From contig CP070715.1 of NCBI GenBank assembly GCA_020350405.1, forward strand, positions 2,591,841 to 2,631,697: DNA of 39,857 nucleotides, in the 5' to 3' direction. This DNA is from Planctomycetota bacterium. GTDB lineage: Bacteria > Planctomycetota > Phycisphaerae > Sedimentisphaerales > Anaerobacaceae. The position numbers and the translations under genes are program-made. Shown here in pieces: positions 34,348 to 39,857 of the stretch. Below the pieces are notes generated by a model, which saw only the letters and a program-made list of their open reading frames with translations, ran no database searches and was not told the DNA's origin. Position 1 is the stretch's first letter. The number at the start of each line of letters is the position of its first letter.

Positions 34348-37215
34348 CTATCTGCTATTGATTACTTCAATGCATCGCCCACATAAATCGGGATTCTCGC
34401 TGTTAGTTCCGACACTCGGCCAATAATTCCAGCATCGCTGACATTTTTGATAGCTGCTTTTCTCGGCTGCGACTATCGTTTGCTCCGCAGCTTTCTGAAT
34501 CTTTACTTCGCTGACAATACAAAGTGCCGCGAATTGCTCAAATCCAAACTCGTTTAGGATTGCTGCAGGTTCTTCATCTCCGCAGCGGATAGTCACGCTG
34601 GCTTCTTGGTTACTCGCAATCTTTTTCTCCTGCCTCAAACCTTCCAAAACCCGCAAAACCTCCTCACGCAGCCCCATTATCTTGTCCCACTTAGGTTCCT
34701 GGCCCTGCCAGTCAATCGACTCGTCGACCTTTGGCATCTTAGCTAAGTGTACGCCTTCAACGTCCTGCGACTTGAACTTCATCGCTGCCCACGCCTCTTG
34801 GGCTGTGTGCGCCAGAACCGGTGCAAGCATTCGGACCAGGCAGTCAAGTATCATGTACATCGCGGTTTGTCCGCTTCGCCGAGATAAGTTGTCTGTTGGG
34901 TCGCAGTACATCCTGTCCTTGAGTACATCCATATAGATGCTGCTCATCTCGACCGTACAAAAGTTGTAAATAAGCGAAAAAACTCTGTGAAAGATAAAGT
35001 TCTCGTAAGCCTTTGTTACGTTCGCAATCAGCTTCTGTAACCGCTGCATTGCCCACTTATCAATCTCGAACATTTCCTCGTAGGCTATCGCTTGCTCATT
35101 CGGGTCAAAATCATCGATGTTGCCCAGCAGATATCTGAGCGTGTTTCTGATTTTCCTGTAGGCGTCCTGCGTCCGTCCTATTAATTCGTCATTGCATCGT
35201 ATATCTTCCTGATAATTTACACTCGCCACCCACAGCCGTAAAATATCCGAACCGTACTTTGCTACCTCCTCTTGAGCATTAACGTAGTTGCCCAGCGATT
35301 TCGACTGCTTGATTCCCTTTTCATCAACAGTAAAACCATGGGTTAGAACGGCCTTGAAGGGCTCTTTTCCGGTTGCTCCCAGTGCCGGCAGGAGTGATAG
35401 TTGAAACCACCCGCGGTGCTGGTCTGAGCCTTCCAGATACAAGTCGACAGGCATGGGCCAGCCTGCTTCTTTCACACACACACAGTACCAGCTGCAGCCT
35501 GCCTCAAACCACACATCAAAGATGTTCTCTTCTTTTTCCAGGTCGCCAAAATCAAATCCTTCCGGCAGCTCAAAATCCTCACCCAAAATCTGCCGGGGTG
35601 AATCGGTAAACCAACTGTCGGAGCCTTTCTGCGCAATATGCCTGGATACGGCTAATACAGACTCTTTTGTAAGCAGGGCTTGGCCTTCTGAATCTACAAA
35701 CACCGGCAGCGGCAGACCCCAACTCCTCTGTCTGCTTATGCACCAGTCGGGCCTAAGTGCCAGCATCCCCTCAATCCGCTTTTGGCCCCACGCAGGAATC
35801 CATTTTACATTTCTGACCCGTTCCAGCGACAAGTCACGCAGGCTTTTTCCTATACCAAACAGTTCCTTGTCGACACTAATAAACCATTGTTCCGTAGCCC
35901 TGAATATGACCGGCATTTTGCTGCGCCAGCAGTGAGGATAGCTATGCACAATCTCGTCCTGCGCAAAAAGTAGTCCCTTTTCTTCCAGGTCCTTATTTAC
36001 GACAGCATCAACCTCCAGTACGTTTTTTCCCCGCAGCCAGTCCGGCACAGTATCATCATAACAACCGTTGTCCAGCACAGGCGAATAGACTTCCAGGTCA
36101 TACTGCATCCCTGATACAAAGTCCTCAAGACCGTGTCCCGGTGCAATATGGACAAGTCCCGTGCCGTCTTCAGTAGTAACGTATTCGGCGCAGATTACCA
36201 TATAGGCGTCCTTTTCCGTTGGATTGTTCCTTACAAATGGATGCTGATATCGGAGTCCTTCAAGCTCTTTGCCTCTGACTTTATTTTTGCCAACGGTATA
36301 TTGTCCTTGCTCTAAACCGCCCGCCGCAACCGCCGCCTCGACCCGCTCGGTCACCAATATTGAGACAAACTTGCTGCCGTTCTTTTCGTAGGTTATCGCC
36401 GTATAATCAAGATGAGGATGCACCGCTACTGCCAGATTAGCCGCAAGCGTCCAGGGTGTGGTCGTCCATATCATAAGGCATACCTTTGTGTCTTCAGAAT
36501 TGCCTTGCTCAACCAAACCGAGTTCAGCCAATCGTCCGATACTTTCTTTAGCAACAGGAAAATTGACGAAGATGCTCGGTGATGAAATGTCTTTGTATTC
36601 CAATTCCGCCTCGGCCAGGGCCGTCTCACATCCAACCGACCAGTGAATCGGCTTAAGTTGCTTGTAAACCAATCCCTTGTCCACCAGCTCGGCAAATACC
36701 TCTAAAATCCCGGCCTCGTACGCGGGCTTAAACGTCAGATAGGGGTTCTCAAAATCACCGAATACCCCCAATTCCTGAAACTGCCTGCTTTGCACCTTGA
36801 TGTATTTGCTCGCATATTTCTTACACGCCTGGCGGATGTCGAGCTTGGCTCTGCCTCGCATCTTATCACCCAGCTCTCCCACGACCTTCGATTCGATGGG
36901 CAGGCCGTGGCAGTCCCAGCCCGGTACGTACGGCGCATCAAGGCCCGTCATAGTCTTGTACTTAACAACAAAATCCTTGAGGACCTTGTTTATGACGGTC
37001 CCCATATGGATATCGCCGTTGGCATAAGGCGGCCCATCGTGAAGTATATATAATGGAGCACCCTTGCGGGCCTCTCTTATCCTGCCATAAATATTCTTCT
37101 TTGCCCATTCCTTGCGGAACTGCGGCTCACGCTGCACCAGGTTGGCCTTCATCGAAAAGCTCGTCTTCGGCAGATTCAATGTGTCACGATAACTTTTCGT
37201 TTCCTTTTCAGACAT
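34348..37215 (-). CDS. ileS: Isoleucine-tRNA ligase
   Basis: The start is the ATG at 37215 with GAGG 9 bases upstream. The 955-residue class I synthetase charges tRNA-Ile. It has the HIGH region as PPYANGDIHMG (about 59-69) and an editing (CP1) domain with TTTPWTLAAN and DGTGLVHIAPGHG. The KMSKS loop is in the form KQSKS (636-640, inside GIKQSKSLGN), the anticodon-binding helices follow, and a C-terminal zinc knuckle has CQRCW and CGRC. The C-terminal zinc site and length place it in the bacterial type-1 group. It is the last gene of the methyltransferase-ileS pair and also has a good promoter of its own. The Met-to-Gln change in KMSKS is unusual. A leader peptide region upstream of the pair is rich in Ile codons. 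Confidence 0.97.
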   Translation of the reverse strand: MSEKETKSYRDTLNLPKTSFSMKANLVQREPQFRKEWAKKNIYGRIREARKGAPLYILHDGPPYANGDIHMGTVINKVLKDFVVKYKTMTGLDAPYVPGWDCHGLPIESKVVGELGDKMRGRAKLDIRQACKKYASKYIKVQSRQFQELGVFGDFENPYLTFKPAYEAGILEVFAELVDKGLVYKQLKPIHWSVGCETALAEAELEYKDISSPSIFVNFPVAKESIGRLAELGLVEQGNSEDTKVCLMIWTTTPWTLAANLAVAVHPHLDYTAITYEKNGSKFVSILVTERVEAAVAAGGLEQGQYTVGKNKVRGKELEGLRYQHPFVRNNPTEKDAYMVICAEYVTTEDGTGLVHIAPGHGLEDFVSGMQYDLEVYSPVLDNGCYDDTVPDWLRGKNVLEVDAVVNKDLEEKGLLFAQDEIVHSYPHCWRSKMPVIFRATEQWFISVDKELFGIGKSLRDLSLERVRNVKWIPAWGQKRIEGMLALRPDWCISRQRSWGLPLPVFVDSEGQALLTKESVLAVSRHIAQKGSDSWFTDSPRQILGEDFELPEGFDFGDLEKEENIFDVWFEAGCSWYCVCVKEAGWPMPVDLYLEGSDQHRGWFQLSLLPALGATGKEPFKAVLTHGFTVDEKGIKQSKSLGNYVNAQEEVAKYGSDILRLWVASVNYQEDIRCNDELIGRTQDAYRKIRNTLRYLLGNIDDFDPNEQAIAYEEMFEIDKWAMQRLQKLIANVTKAYENFIFHRVFSLIYNFCTVEMSSIYMDVLKDRMYCDPTDNLSRRSGQTAMYMILDCLVRMLAPVLAHTAQEAWAAMKFKSQDVEGVHLAKMPKVDESIDWQGQEPKWDKIMGLREEVLRVLEGLRQEKKIASNQEASVTIRCGDEEPAAILNEFGFEQFAALCIVSEVKIQKAAEQTIVAAEKSSYQKCQRCWNYWPSVGTNSENPDLCGRCIEVINSR

Positions 37216-37327: not shown

Positions 37328-38083
37328 TTACTTGCAACCTACCGCGACCAGCCTGTTGGCTTTTTGGTCGTACGGCGAGCCGTCTAAACCGCCGTAAGTG
37401 TCTACTCGGCTGAATCCGCAACTGCTCATCAGCTCACAAAGCTCAACCGCAGAATAAAGCCTCGCGTACAATTTACGTTCGTATCTTTTCCCGTCCTTAA
37501 TCAGAATCCAGCGGCTTTCTATAAAGTGCCAGTTCTCACCGACTTTTCGTTCTTCCAGAAGGATAATGCCTTCTTCCTCTCTCCAGTCCCGTTCCTGGAA
37601 GATTCGTGCTAATACTTCTTTTCCCACAACGTCTATTAGTAATTTGCCGCCGTCTTTGAGCGATTTATATATATTTTCTAGGCATGTTCTTTCGTCGGCC
37701 GGCTCCTCGAAATATCCGAATGATGTGTACAAATTGAGCACGGCATCGAAAGAATCCGCCTGATAGAAGTCCCTTATATCCTCGTGTATAAACTGAATTT
37801 CCAGACCTTCACTATCTGCCTTTTTCTTCGCCTCCTGAAGGTAGCTCATAGTCCTGTCCACGCCCGTGACCTTGAATCCTCTGCGGGCCAGATCCAGACT
37901 ATGCCTGCCTACGCCACAGCACAAATCGCAAATAATTGAGTCCTGCTGCAACTTCAATAAGTTCATAAGCTGTTCCGCCTCCTGCGGTGCTGCCAGAATC
38001 GTCTTGTTGCTGAATATCACAGGAGCGAACGTTTCCCAGAAACTGTCCTGCTCGTGCCATGGCTTTTCTACTGTTTTTTGCAT
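37328..38083 (-). CDS. SAM-dependent methyltransferase (class I)
   Basis: The ATG at 38083 follows AAAGG by 7 bases; a TTG five codons upstream is less likely. The 251-residue protein has a Rossmann-type SAM fold: motif I ICDLCCGVGRHSLDLARRG, the acidic strand end TGVDRT, motif II-like EDIRDF and motif IV-like FDAVLNLYTSFGYF. KDGGKLLIDVVG is the post-motif strand. The C-terminal half (KRYERKLYARLYSAVELCELMSSCGF) forms the small substrate lid. The target is unknown; a tRNA or small-molecule role is equally possible. It lies 112 bp upstream of ileS on the same strand and 35 bp downstream of a terminator that belongs to an Ile-rich leader, which suggests shared control. Confidence 0.88.
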   Translation of the reverse strand: MQKTVEKPWHEQDSFWETFAPVIFSNKTILAAPQEAEQLMNLLKLQQDSIICDLCCGVGRHSLDLARRGFKVTGVDRTMSYLQEAKKKADSEGLEIQFIHEDIRDFYQADSFDAVLNLYTSFGYFEEPADERTCLENIYKSLKDGGKLLIDVVGKEVLARIFQERDWREEEGIILLEERKVGENWHFIESRWILIKDGKRYERKLYARLYSAVELCELMSSCGFSRVDTYGGLDGSPYDQKANRLVAVGCK

Positions 38084-38118: not shown

Positions 38119-38155
38119 AAAAAAAAGCCTTCCAGAGTTAGCTGCTCTGGAAGGC
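38119..38155 (-). terminator. Leader terminator (attenuator) upstream of the methyltransferase-ileS pair
   Basis: On the minus strand GCCTTCCAGAG (38155-38145) pairs perfectly with CTCTGGAAGGC (38137-38127) around a 7-nt loop, followed by eight T (38126-38119). It is 25 bp after the leader peptide stop and 35 bp before the methyltransferase start, so it can only act on transcripts entering these genes. Confidence 0.9.
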
Positions 38156-38180
38156 CTTTAATTCAGTGAATATAGCTTTC

Positions 38181-38243
38181 TCAGGGCAGCTTGAGCTTGT
38201 CCGCAATAATCATTATAATCACGTTGTTTATGGTAATACTCAT
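38181..38243 (-). CDS. Putative isoleucine-rich leader peptide (attenuation)
   Basis: The frame from the ATG at 38243 encodes MSITINNVIIMIIADKLKLP and stops at TGA (38183-38181). Six Ile codons (four ATT, two ATA) fall within the first 13 positions, at 3, 5, 9, 10, 12 and 13. The codons end just before a segment (AGCTGCCCTG, 38191-38182) that overlaps the stop and can pair, nine of ten bases, with CAGAGCAGCT (38149-38140) in the 5' arm and loop of the following terminator. This is the plan of trp/ilv-type leader peptides. A TTG three codons upstream in frame could also start it and adds one more Ile codon. The Shine-Dalgarno site is weak. Function is inferred. Confidence 0.65.
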   Translation of the reverse strand: MSITINNVIIMIIADKLKLP

Positions 38244-38285
38244 AATATTCAAACCGACGCAATATAGTTAAATAGTCACCGACAG

Positions 38286-38314
38286 TATTTACTATAATAG
38301 TCGGCCAATGTCAA
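38286..38314 (-). promoter_or_regulatory. Promoter of the leader, methyltransferase and ileS, with overlapping palindrome
   Basis: On the minus strand TTGACA (38309-38314), a 17-bp spacer and TAAATA (38286-38291, a weak -10). Transcription from about 38279 gives a leader RNA of about 160 nt to the end of the T-run. CCGAC and GTCGG (38279-38304) form an inverted repeat across the -10 box, a possible operator. Confidence 0.5.
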
Positions 38315-38602: not shown

Positions 38603-39857
38603 GTGGCTAAAAAGAAAAGAGTCTCACGCAGTTCAACCAACAAAGAGCCGGTCTCACGCAGCTCAGCTGGCAGGATAGAGGCGTTGGTTTTGACCTGTTT
38701 CTTTTTCTCCGGCGTTACGGGCCTGACCTACGAGATACTGTGGACAAGGATGATAGTCAAGGTCATCGGGGCGGCCCCATTTGCCATAAGTATCGTTCTG
38801 ACCGTCTTTATGGGTGGTTTGGGTCTGGGCAGCTACATTGCCAGTCGCACCATAGACCGCATCAAACAGCCGCTGAGATTGGTAAGGATTTACGGCATAC
38901 TGGAACTTGCCATAGGTGCTTACGGACTTGCAGTTCCGTTTCTGCTGAGGGCATTTACACCCCTTTACGCGGTTGTTTACAATCAGCTCTTCAGCCACTT
39001 TATGCTGTATAACTTTATTACCTTTATTGGCTGTGTTGTTCTATTGTGCATCCCTGTCATCTGTATGGGTGCGACACTGCCCATCTTATGTCGGTTTTAT
39101 GTTAGCAGCCTGTCGCACTTGGGCACGCACGCGGGCAGATTATACGGCTTGAATACCATTGGCGCGGCTTTGGGTGCTCTTCTGTGTGGATTTTGGTTTA
39201 TACACTATTTAAGCATGCCGGGCACATTGATTCTGGCGGTACTTATCAATGGCGTTATTGGGATATTGTGCCTGCGGGCCGGCTCTGGGACACGGCCAAG
39301 GAAGGCAGCTTCGGACTCAAAAACACCCTCCCAAGCAGATGTTGTCGGGACTTCTAAGGTTGCGCAATATCCGGGGGCCCTTACGGCTGCACTGGTAATC
39401 TTTGCCGTATCTGGCTTTTGCGCTATGGCCTACGAGGTGATATGGGCCAAGTTATTGGGTCTGATAGTCGGCCCTACCACATATTCATTTACTATTGTAC
39501 TTGTTACATTCATTTTGGGCCTGGCGTTAGGCAGTATGCTGTTCGGCTGGCTTGGTGATAAGACCGGCAAGCCCTTGTGGCTGTTGGTATCGACTCAGAT
39601 TGTAGCTGCTTTGATTGTATTGGGGGTAAGTCAGGTGATGGGCAACAGTCAGTTCTTTTTTGCGAAGTTGATTTTTACGTTCAGGGAGCGTTTTGCGCTT
39701 CTGAGTATATCGAAGGCGTTTATTTTATTTTGTCTTATGATTTTTCCCACGCTTTGTCTTGGCGCGACTTTTCCCTTGGTAGGTAAGATTTACACTCAGT
39801 CTGTATCTAAGGTGGGTAGATCCATCGGTGTTGCTTACGCAATCAATACAATCGGTG
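38603..39857 (+). CDS. Fused MFS/spermidine synthase-like membrane protein, 3' truncated
   Basis: The start is the GTG at 38603 with AGGA 6 bases upstream; the frame runs off the window after 418 codons. The visible part has a basic tail with a small repeat (VSRSSTNKEPVSRSS). Several transmembrane segments follow in two similar halves, each starting with the motif SG-(T/C)-x-(L/M)-x-YE-(I/V)-x-W (SGVTGLTYEILWTRM and SGFCAMAYEVIWAKL). GASLGS-like segments and YGLNTIGAALGALLCGF are also present. This is the membrane part of the fused MFS transporter/spermidine synthase proteins common in planctomycetes and deltaproteobacteria. The synthase-like domain expected at the C-terminus is beyond the end. 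Polyamine synthesis by these fusions is mostly unproven. Confidence 0.85.
   Translation, partial: MAKKKRVSRSSTNKEPVSRSSAGRIEALVLTCFFFSGVTGLTYEILWTRMIVKVIGAAPFAISIVLTVFMGGLGLGSYIASRTIDRIKQPLRLVRIYGILELAIGAYGLAVPFLLRAFTPLYAVVYNQLFSHFMLYNFITFIGCVVLLCIPVICMGATLPILCRFYVSSLSHLGTHAGRLYGLNTIGAALGALLCGFWFIHYLSMPGTLILAVLINGVIGILCLRAGSGTRPRKAASDSKTPSQADVVGTSKVAQYPGALTAALVIFAVSGFCAMAYEVIWAKLLGLIVGPTTYSFTIVLVTFILGLALGSMLFGWLGDKTGKPLWLLVSTQIVAALIVLGVSQVMGNSQFFFAKLIFTFRERFALLSISKAFILFCLMIFPTLCLGATFPLVGKIYTQSVSKVGRSIGVAYAINTIG

Follow-up and report, generated by a model that had tools for sequence, protein, structure and literature searches.

A predicted isoleucine leader peptide attenuator 5' to ileS in Phycisphaerae (Planctomycetota)

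Features of the ileS upstream region

The DNA analyzed here, referred to as the window, is a stretch of 39,857 nucleotides that forms a portion of a single-contig genome of 2.96 Mb; its relatives are Phycisphaerae, several of which carry the Sedimentisphaerales label. The promoters, leader, hairpin, methyltransferase gene and ileS described below are on the minus strand. The gene ileS (34348-37215) encodes isoleucyl-tRNA synthetase (Pfam tRNA-synt_1, Anticodon_1 and zf-FPG_IleRS) and is preceded by the first gene of the operon, which encodes a SAM-dependent class I methyltransferase (37328-38083; Pfam Methyltransf_25, 4.9e-19). The methyltransferase gave only generic family matches, and it reached no NCBIfam cut-off. 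The identities that a sequence-only reading of this DNA had assigned to the two genes were upheld by these Pfam matches. Two putative promoters were found. The first, P1 (38286-38314), is sigma-70-like, with TTGACA at 38314-38309, a 17-nt spacer and a -10-like TAAATA at 38291-38286. The second, P2 (37250-37278), lies between the methyltransferase gene and ileS, has the form TTGACA-17-TAGCAT and has similar counterparts in relatives.

Downstream of P1 is a short open reading frame (38181-38243; ATG to TGA, 20 codons and a stop) with the predicted product MSITINNVIIMIIADKLKLP. Six isoleucine codons fall within its first 13 codons, at codons 3, 5, 9, 10, 12 and 13 (38205-38237). The frame is followed by a hairpin with a 7-nt loop (38127-38155), whose arms, GCCTTCCAGAG at 38155-38145 and CTCTGGAAGGC at 38137-38127, form a perfect 11-bp stem, and then by a run of eight T residues in the DNA (38119-38126), giving a candidate intrinsic terminator. 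The sequence-only reading had described this same order, a promoter, a 20-codon frame and a perfect 11-bp hairpin with eight U ahead of the methyltransferase gene and ileS, and direct re-reading of the minus strand found both the features and their coordinates to be correct. P1 is kept in relatives as CTTGACATnGGCCGA...TAAnTAC, the block being present 5' to the element in loci L033, L035, L036, L038, L039, L093, L096, L098 and L102. The gene 5' to the element (38603-39856) is divergently oriented, so the hairpin does not terminate transcription of an upstream gene. At the start of this divergent gene, the 60 bases from 38641 to 38700 have a second copy, 85% identical, at G000:C1:322884-322943.

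Distribution of the element and its linkage to ileS

Covariance models of the element were built from 24 homologous sites (model 1) and from 57 sites (model 2). Among 89 genomes of the family, the 24-site model had hits at E < 1e-10 in 44, and in 60 when E values up to 0.1 were accepted. In a sample of 397 genomes from the class, those with a match to the 57-site model were 46 from the same order plus one other. Outside the class there were only weak matches, none of them with ileS; three of these at the phylum level, L243 to L245, have no adjacent ileS and look like chance. By these matches, the element is spread through the order, but patchily. Since about half of the family genomes have no strong match, this type of control would seem to be dispensable. 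An alignment-free scan for an Ile-rich short frame followed by a terminator was also run on 105 regions 5' to ileS; 45 regions had such a combination on the ileS strand, which is far beyond chance, as the opposite strand gave 3 and shuffled sequence 1.

For comparative work we used a set of 57 distinct elements, all from the same order (Phycisphaerae, Planctomycetota) and mostly from metagenome assemblies. Both the element and ileS could be placed in 53 loci, and in every one of these ileS is downstream of the element on the same strand. It is the next gene in 32 of the 53, at 59-337 nt 3' to the terminator; the remaining 21 have a longer gap, and most of these hold at least one interposed gene, the families of which vary (methyltransferases, GNAT acetyltransferases, an esterase). 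The leader is intact both in L039, where the methyltransferase between it and ileS is reduced to a shortened remnant, and in L013, where no frame as long as 100 codons is left between the leader and ileS. Because the interposed gene varies or decays while the leader persists, ileS is likely to be the constant target.

A near-consensus P2-like promoter, TTGACA-17-TAnnnT, stands directly before ileS in 118 of the 150 loci listed, some of which are redundant and which include the window. It lies about 55-80 nt 5' to ileS and is conserved across the order independently of the attenuator. The attenuated transcript would therefore supplement a basal one, and P2 may carry most ileS transcription. The earlier proposal that the synthetase gene is read through antitermination thus needs a correction, as this would not be the only route into the gene.

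The arrangement also allows for an attenuator that is real and sensitive to isoleucine but acts mainly on the interposed methyltransferase, GNAT or esterase gene, with ileS a bystander driven by P2. P2 directly adjoins ileS, most of the 21 gapped loci contain genes for small-molecule modification, and similar leaders elsewhere head methyltransferase, GNAT and EamA genes; moreover, two Ile leaders stand in tandem in L145, and each of them heads a methyltransferase gene. Against this stand the 32 loci with nothing between the terminator and ileS, and the change of the interposed gene from genome to genome, down to the remnant in L039 and its lack in L013. We consider this explanation unlikely, though it is the strongest of the alternatives. 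In L145 the two leader-terminators occupy 507-613 and 1502-1628, and the order is first leader, homologue of the window methyltransferase, second leader, a different methyltransferase and then ileS.

The leader frame and the alternative RNA folds

Conservation of isoleucine codons in related genomes had been suggested as a check on the small frame, and the Ile run was found to be kept in nearly all of the 57 elements. The last 22 codons of the frame contain a mean of 5.9 Ile codons; the antisense strand has 0.72, and the two alternative frames have 0.61 and 0.16. At codons -8 to -12 relative to the stop, Ile is present in 63-84% of the elements. ATT, ATC and ATA are all in use across the conserved positions, such that the run is kept through synonymous changes, and the start at codon -20 is conserved along with it. 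In diverged members of the set (L022, L023, L017, L016 and L160) the RNA is altered and the Ile run is kept; the endings KAITGIAIIIAIIIGGPG, NETSRIAIIIAIIIGVTP and AIILIINIIIIINLSSL, each followed by the stop, are examples of a retained run in diverged RNA. The spacing is similarly constrained. The last Ile codon is exactly 24 nt 5' to the stop in 43 of the 57 elements, the stop is 28-30 nt 5' to the hairpin in 49, and 40 of the frames end in Pro-stop. When several stops fell within the allowed interval, the choice of stop favoured Ile; most loci offered only one long frame. No clear Shine-Dalgarno sequence was found at the leader start codon. On these codon patterns, the leader frame appears to be under coding selection for isoleucine. 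The sequence-only reading had singled out loss of the frame or of its Ile codons from a region keeping the hairpin as the outcome that would count against it; frame, Ile codons, stop and both folds are co-conserved in the 57 elements, and the weak cases are a few GC-rich relatives with the hairpin and two Ile codons each (L047, L149 and L066).

A short, Ile-rich frame with a strongly conserved C-terminal KLKLP might instead encode a small hydrophobic peptide, toxin-like or regulatory, that acts in trans. The hydrophobic stretch varies, however, and spans no more than 5-9 residues, and the KLP ending is accounted for by the overlapping strand of the antiterminator described below. The frame also has a fixed position before ileS, and the run turns aromatic before an aromatic-pathway gene. 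A peptide acting in trans is, for these reasons, very improbable.

The terminator is supported by covariation: in an alignment of 57 sequences, 96.7% of cells are paired, and there are 33 two-sided changes versus a shuffled mean of 10.3. A competing fold had been proposed earlier, in which nine of the ten bases at 38191-38182 pair with 38149-38140, and this pairing is exact as claimed. The full antiterminator is longer. It comprises 15 bp, AGCUGC.CUG.GAA.GCU (38191-38174) with GGC.UUC.CAG.GCAGCU (38156-38140), arranged as the helices AGCUGC/GCAGCU, CUG/CAG, GAA/UUC and GCU/GGC, with an energy of -21.0 kcal/mol as against -7.4 +- 2.4 for shuffled strands. The terminator, at -19.2 kcal/mol, is of comparable stability. 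The 5' strand, segment 2 (AGCUGCCCUGAGAAAGCU, 38174-38191), includes the leader stop; the 3' strand, segment 3 (38140-38156), also provides the 5' arm of the terminator and most of its loop. The extension of the full antiterminator past the stop explains the conserved GAGAAAGC/GG found 3' to it.

In the first covariation test, with 24 close sequences, no two-sided changes were seen in the antiterminator; the 57-sequence set showed them. In that set 86% of its cells are paired and two-sided changes occur at 7 pairs, a number reached by 3 of 500 shuffles; the two-sided cells number 23 versus 13.9 expected, and none of 500 shuffles reached 23. Averaged over elements, segment 2 pairs with its own segment 3 at -19.4 kcal/mol and with mismatched segments at -17.7 kcal/mol, a preference equalled in 0 of 20,000 permutations. 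Because shared ancestry inflates the shuffle and permutation results, they are taken as support and not as exact probabilities. The compensatory changes for which both alternative stems were to be searched are thus present in the terminator and in the antiterminator among the 57 elements, and the two structures are best described, from these alignments, as mutually exclusive, covarying folds.

The fate of a third proposed stem was different. A CUCA/UGAG stem had been suggested to hide segment 2 when no ribosome is present, but it is missing from the many elements with the KMKLP version of the ending, which have ATGA for CTCA, and is not conserved; nor was any conserved 1:2 protector hairpin found across the elements. 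Such a protector (1:2) hairpin gives termination without translation and is classic in trp, though not universal.

The perfect hairpin with its U run and the weak translation signals would also suit an ordinary constitutive terminator next to which the small frame is incidental. There is no upstream gene on the minus strand for it to serve, and this explanation is contradicted by the co-conserved frame, the identity of the Ile codons, the spacing and the second, exclusive fold, as well as by the scan, in which about 1 of 105 regions was expected by chance and 45 were observed; we find it hardly credible. Least probable of all is a T-box or other tRNA- or ligand-binding riboswitch. In its favour is the standing of ileS as a classic T-box gene in Firmicutes that is T-box-controlled also in Actinobacteria (PMC1262725, PMC2494555), but the span from the P1 start site to the terminator is too short for stem I or a T-box sequence, and in the window neither a T-box nor any other riboswitch scored above threshold. 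Twenty related ileS loci without the element gave no Rfam match whatever. The known Rfam leader families were rejected, with scores below the gathering thresholds for His_leader (26.1 of 49 bits), which is the best sub-threshold match of the element, and for Phe_leader (17.9 of 55).

Proposed mechanism, known attenuators and related leaders

The earlier reading of the region as a leader-peptide attenuator gains support from the conserved frame, Ile codons, stop position and alternative folds of the 57 elements. We would give a probability of about 0.88 to a ribosome-mediated transcription attenuator with charged tRNA-Ile as its signal and transcription into ileS as the step under control. The observed frame, Ile conservation, spacing, exclusive covarying folds and linkage to ileS are the features from which we infer leader translation, stalling, termination and the response to isoleucine. 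RNA polymerase would start at P1, with a ribosome following into the leader. With ample Ile-tRNA, the ribosome would reach the UGA, for which Pro is often the last sense codon, and occupy segment 2; segment 3 would then be free, the terminator would form and the transcript would end. With scarce Ile-tRNA, the ribosome would stall on the Ile run, and because the last codon of the run is 24 nt from the stop, segment 2 would remain just outside its cover and could pair with the newly made segment 3 before the 3' arm of the terminator exists, and the polymerase would continue. P2 would give ileS its basal supply, to which the attenuated P1 transcript would add; in the window, the methyltransferase gene sits between the attenuator and ileS.

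Folding with and without a ribosome footprint, another check put forward earlier, bears out part of this scheme. With a modelled ribosome on the last Ile codon the nascent antiterminator forms in 51 of 57 elements, and with a ribosome on a middle Ile codon it forms in 55; with the ribosome at the stop it is blocked in all 57. Without a ribosome, it forms in 54 of 57. Thus, a ribosome at the Ile codons frees the antiterminator and one at the stop blocks it, as envisaged, but segment 2 of the ribosome-free RNA is not hidden. Since the protector stem is missing with the KMKLP ending, the prediction for an untranslated leader is read-through instead of termination. For the full-length RNA at equilibrium, the terminator is favoured in every ribosome state; the switch would therefore depend on co-transcriptional kinetics.

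Leader-peptide attenuators are known for trp, his, ilv and pheST, the last of these in E. coli. The sequence-level features of this class are all present here except the protector hairpin. The trp, his, ilv, leu, thr and pheA attenuators of Proteobacteria are alike in the run of cognate codons, masking by the ribosome and competition between terminator and antiterminator; the element described here differs in its synthetase target, its occurrence in Planctomycetota, the lack of a conserved protector hairpin and the lack of any sequence relationship. Closer in target are pheST, the predicted leader-peptide attenuators of trpS and leuS in Streptomyces (PMC1262725) and the leaders of hisS paralogues in Bacillus (PMC2965389), in which, too, a terminator follows a leader peptide enriched in the amino acid that the synthetase handles; here, in contrast, the gene is ileS, the phylum is different and there is an extra promoter past the attenuator. 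The T-boxes that Firmicutes and Actinobacteria have before ileS (PMC1262725, PMC2494555) are alike in gene and in signal, the charging of tRNA-Ile, but a T-box reads uncharged tRNA directly without a leader frame, whereas the Planctomycetota element has one. According to a 2010 survey, leader-peptide attenuation had been shown earlier only in Proteobacteria and Actinobacteria, to which the survey added Firmicutes (PMC2965389). The open-access papers searched yielded neither an ileS leader peptide nor a planctomycete attenuator, although an earlier mention is possible in Lopatovskaya 2010, a source represented here by its citation in PMC4833913. As far as the searched open-access literature shows, this would be a known mechanism with a new target, ileS, in a new phylum. 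The attenuator would constitute a third route of ileS control, besides transcriptional and translational T-boxes, and the Ile leader is a compact module amenable to reporter testing.

In classical attenuation a ribosome must follow RNA polymerase closely. Conservation of an attenuator would therefore argue, on genetic grounds, that transcription and translation are coupled in this lineage. The planctomycete nucleoid is condensed and membrane-bordered, and some authors propose a nucleus-like body (PMC5287468, PMC3440768).

Leaders of the same layout were also encountered away from ileS. In two genomes, aromatic codon runs (VFYFGYWFWFYY..P and LFYFWFYF..P, each before the stop) precede an aldolase gene. 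These leaders, which end in NGVFYFGYWFWFYYEPTKP and GLFYFWFYFSGRSAP before the stop and are followed by a terminator, are found on the minus strand of L171 (478-601 of the reverse complement) and in L281, and lie 5' to paralogues of a class I aldolase-like gene. By inspection of its sequence, we presume that this aldolase resembles ADTH synthase and is connected with aromatic biosynthesis. A Met-rich leader (MNMSLGMGMGSTGTKGARMLL before the stop) with a strong antiterminator occurs in L242, at about 1460-1570, before a homologue of the window methyltransferase and with no ileS nearby. In 15 relatives, the regions 5' to pheS and ilvC gave no leaders; in some loci, pheS follows the gene for ribosomal protein L20.

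It was weak model matches that yielded these leaders, and others of this layout near asd, dapF, glnA and GNAT, methyltransferase and EamA genes. A second class of leaders, in L169, L170, L173, L175, L176, L179 and L180, has no obvious amino-acid run; several end in KEAAP, KEAIP or KEPVP before the stop, the antiterminators are strong where computed, and the genes that follow encode a methyltransferase, EamA transporter, GNAT protein or aminotransferase. In most of the non-Ile leaders, pairing between the terminator arm and the region of the stop far exceeds shuffled values; L172 is weak in this respect. Recurrence of the layout with other codon runs supports an attenuation mechanism, as judged by sequence comparison. 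We see about even chances that the stop, antiterminator and terminator layout is a reusable module and marks an unrecognised attenuation regulon in the order, one that would need a coupled ribosome and RNA polymerase. Under this regulon reading, the proposed assignments are Ile with ileS, Phe/Tyr/Trp with the aldolase, and the Met-rich leader with the methyltransferase, with others near asd, dapF, glnA and the GNAT, methyltransferase and EamA genes. Among the latter, leaders ending in IKENSP before the stop precede GNAT genes in L159, L162 and L168, followed by glnA in L162 and L168, and leaders ending in PTP or SLP precede a PhzF-like gene and asd in L172 and L178.
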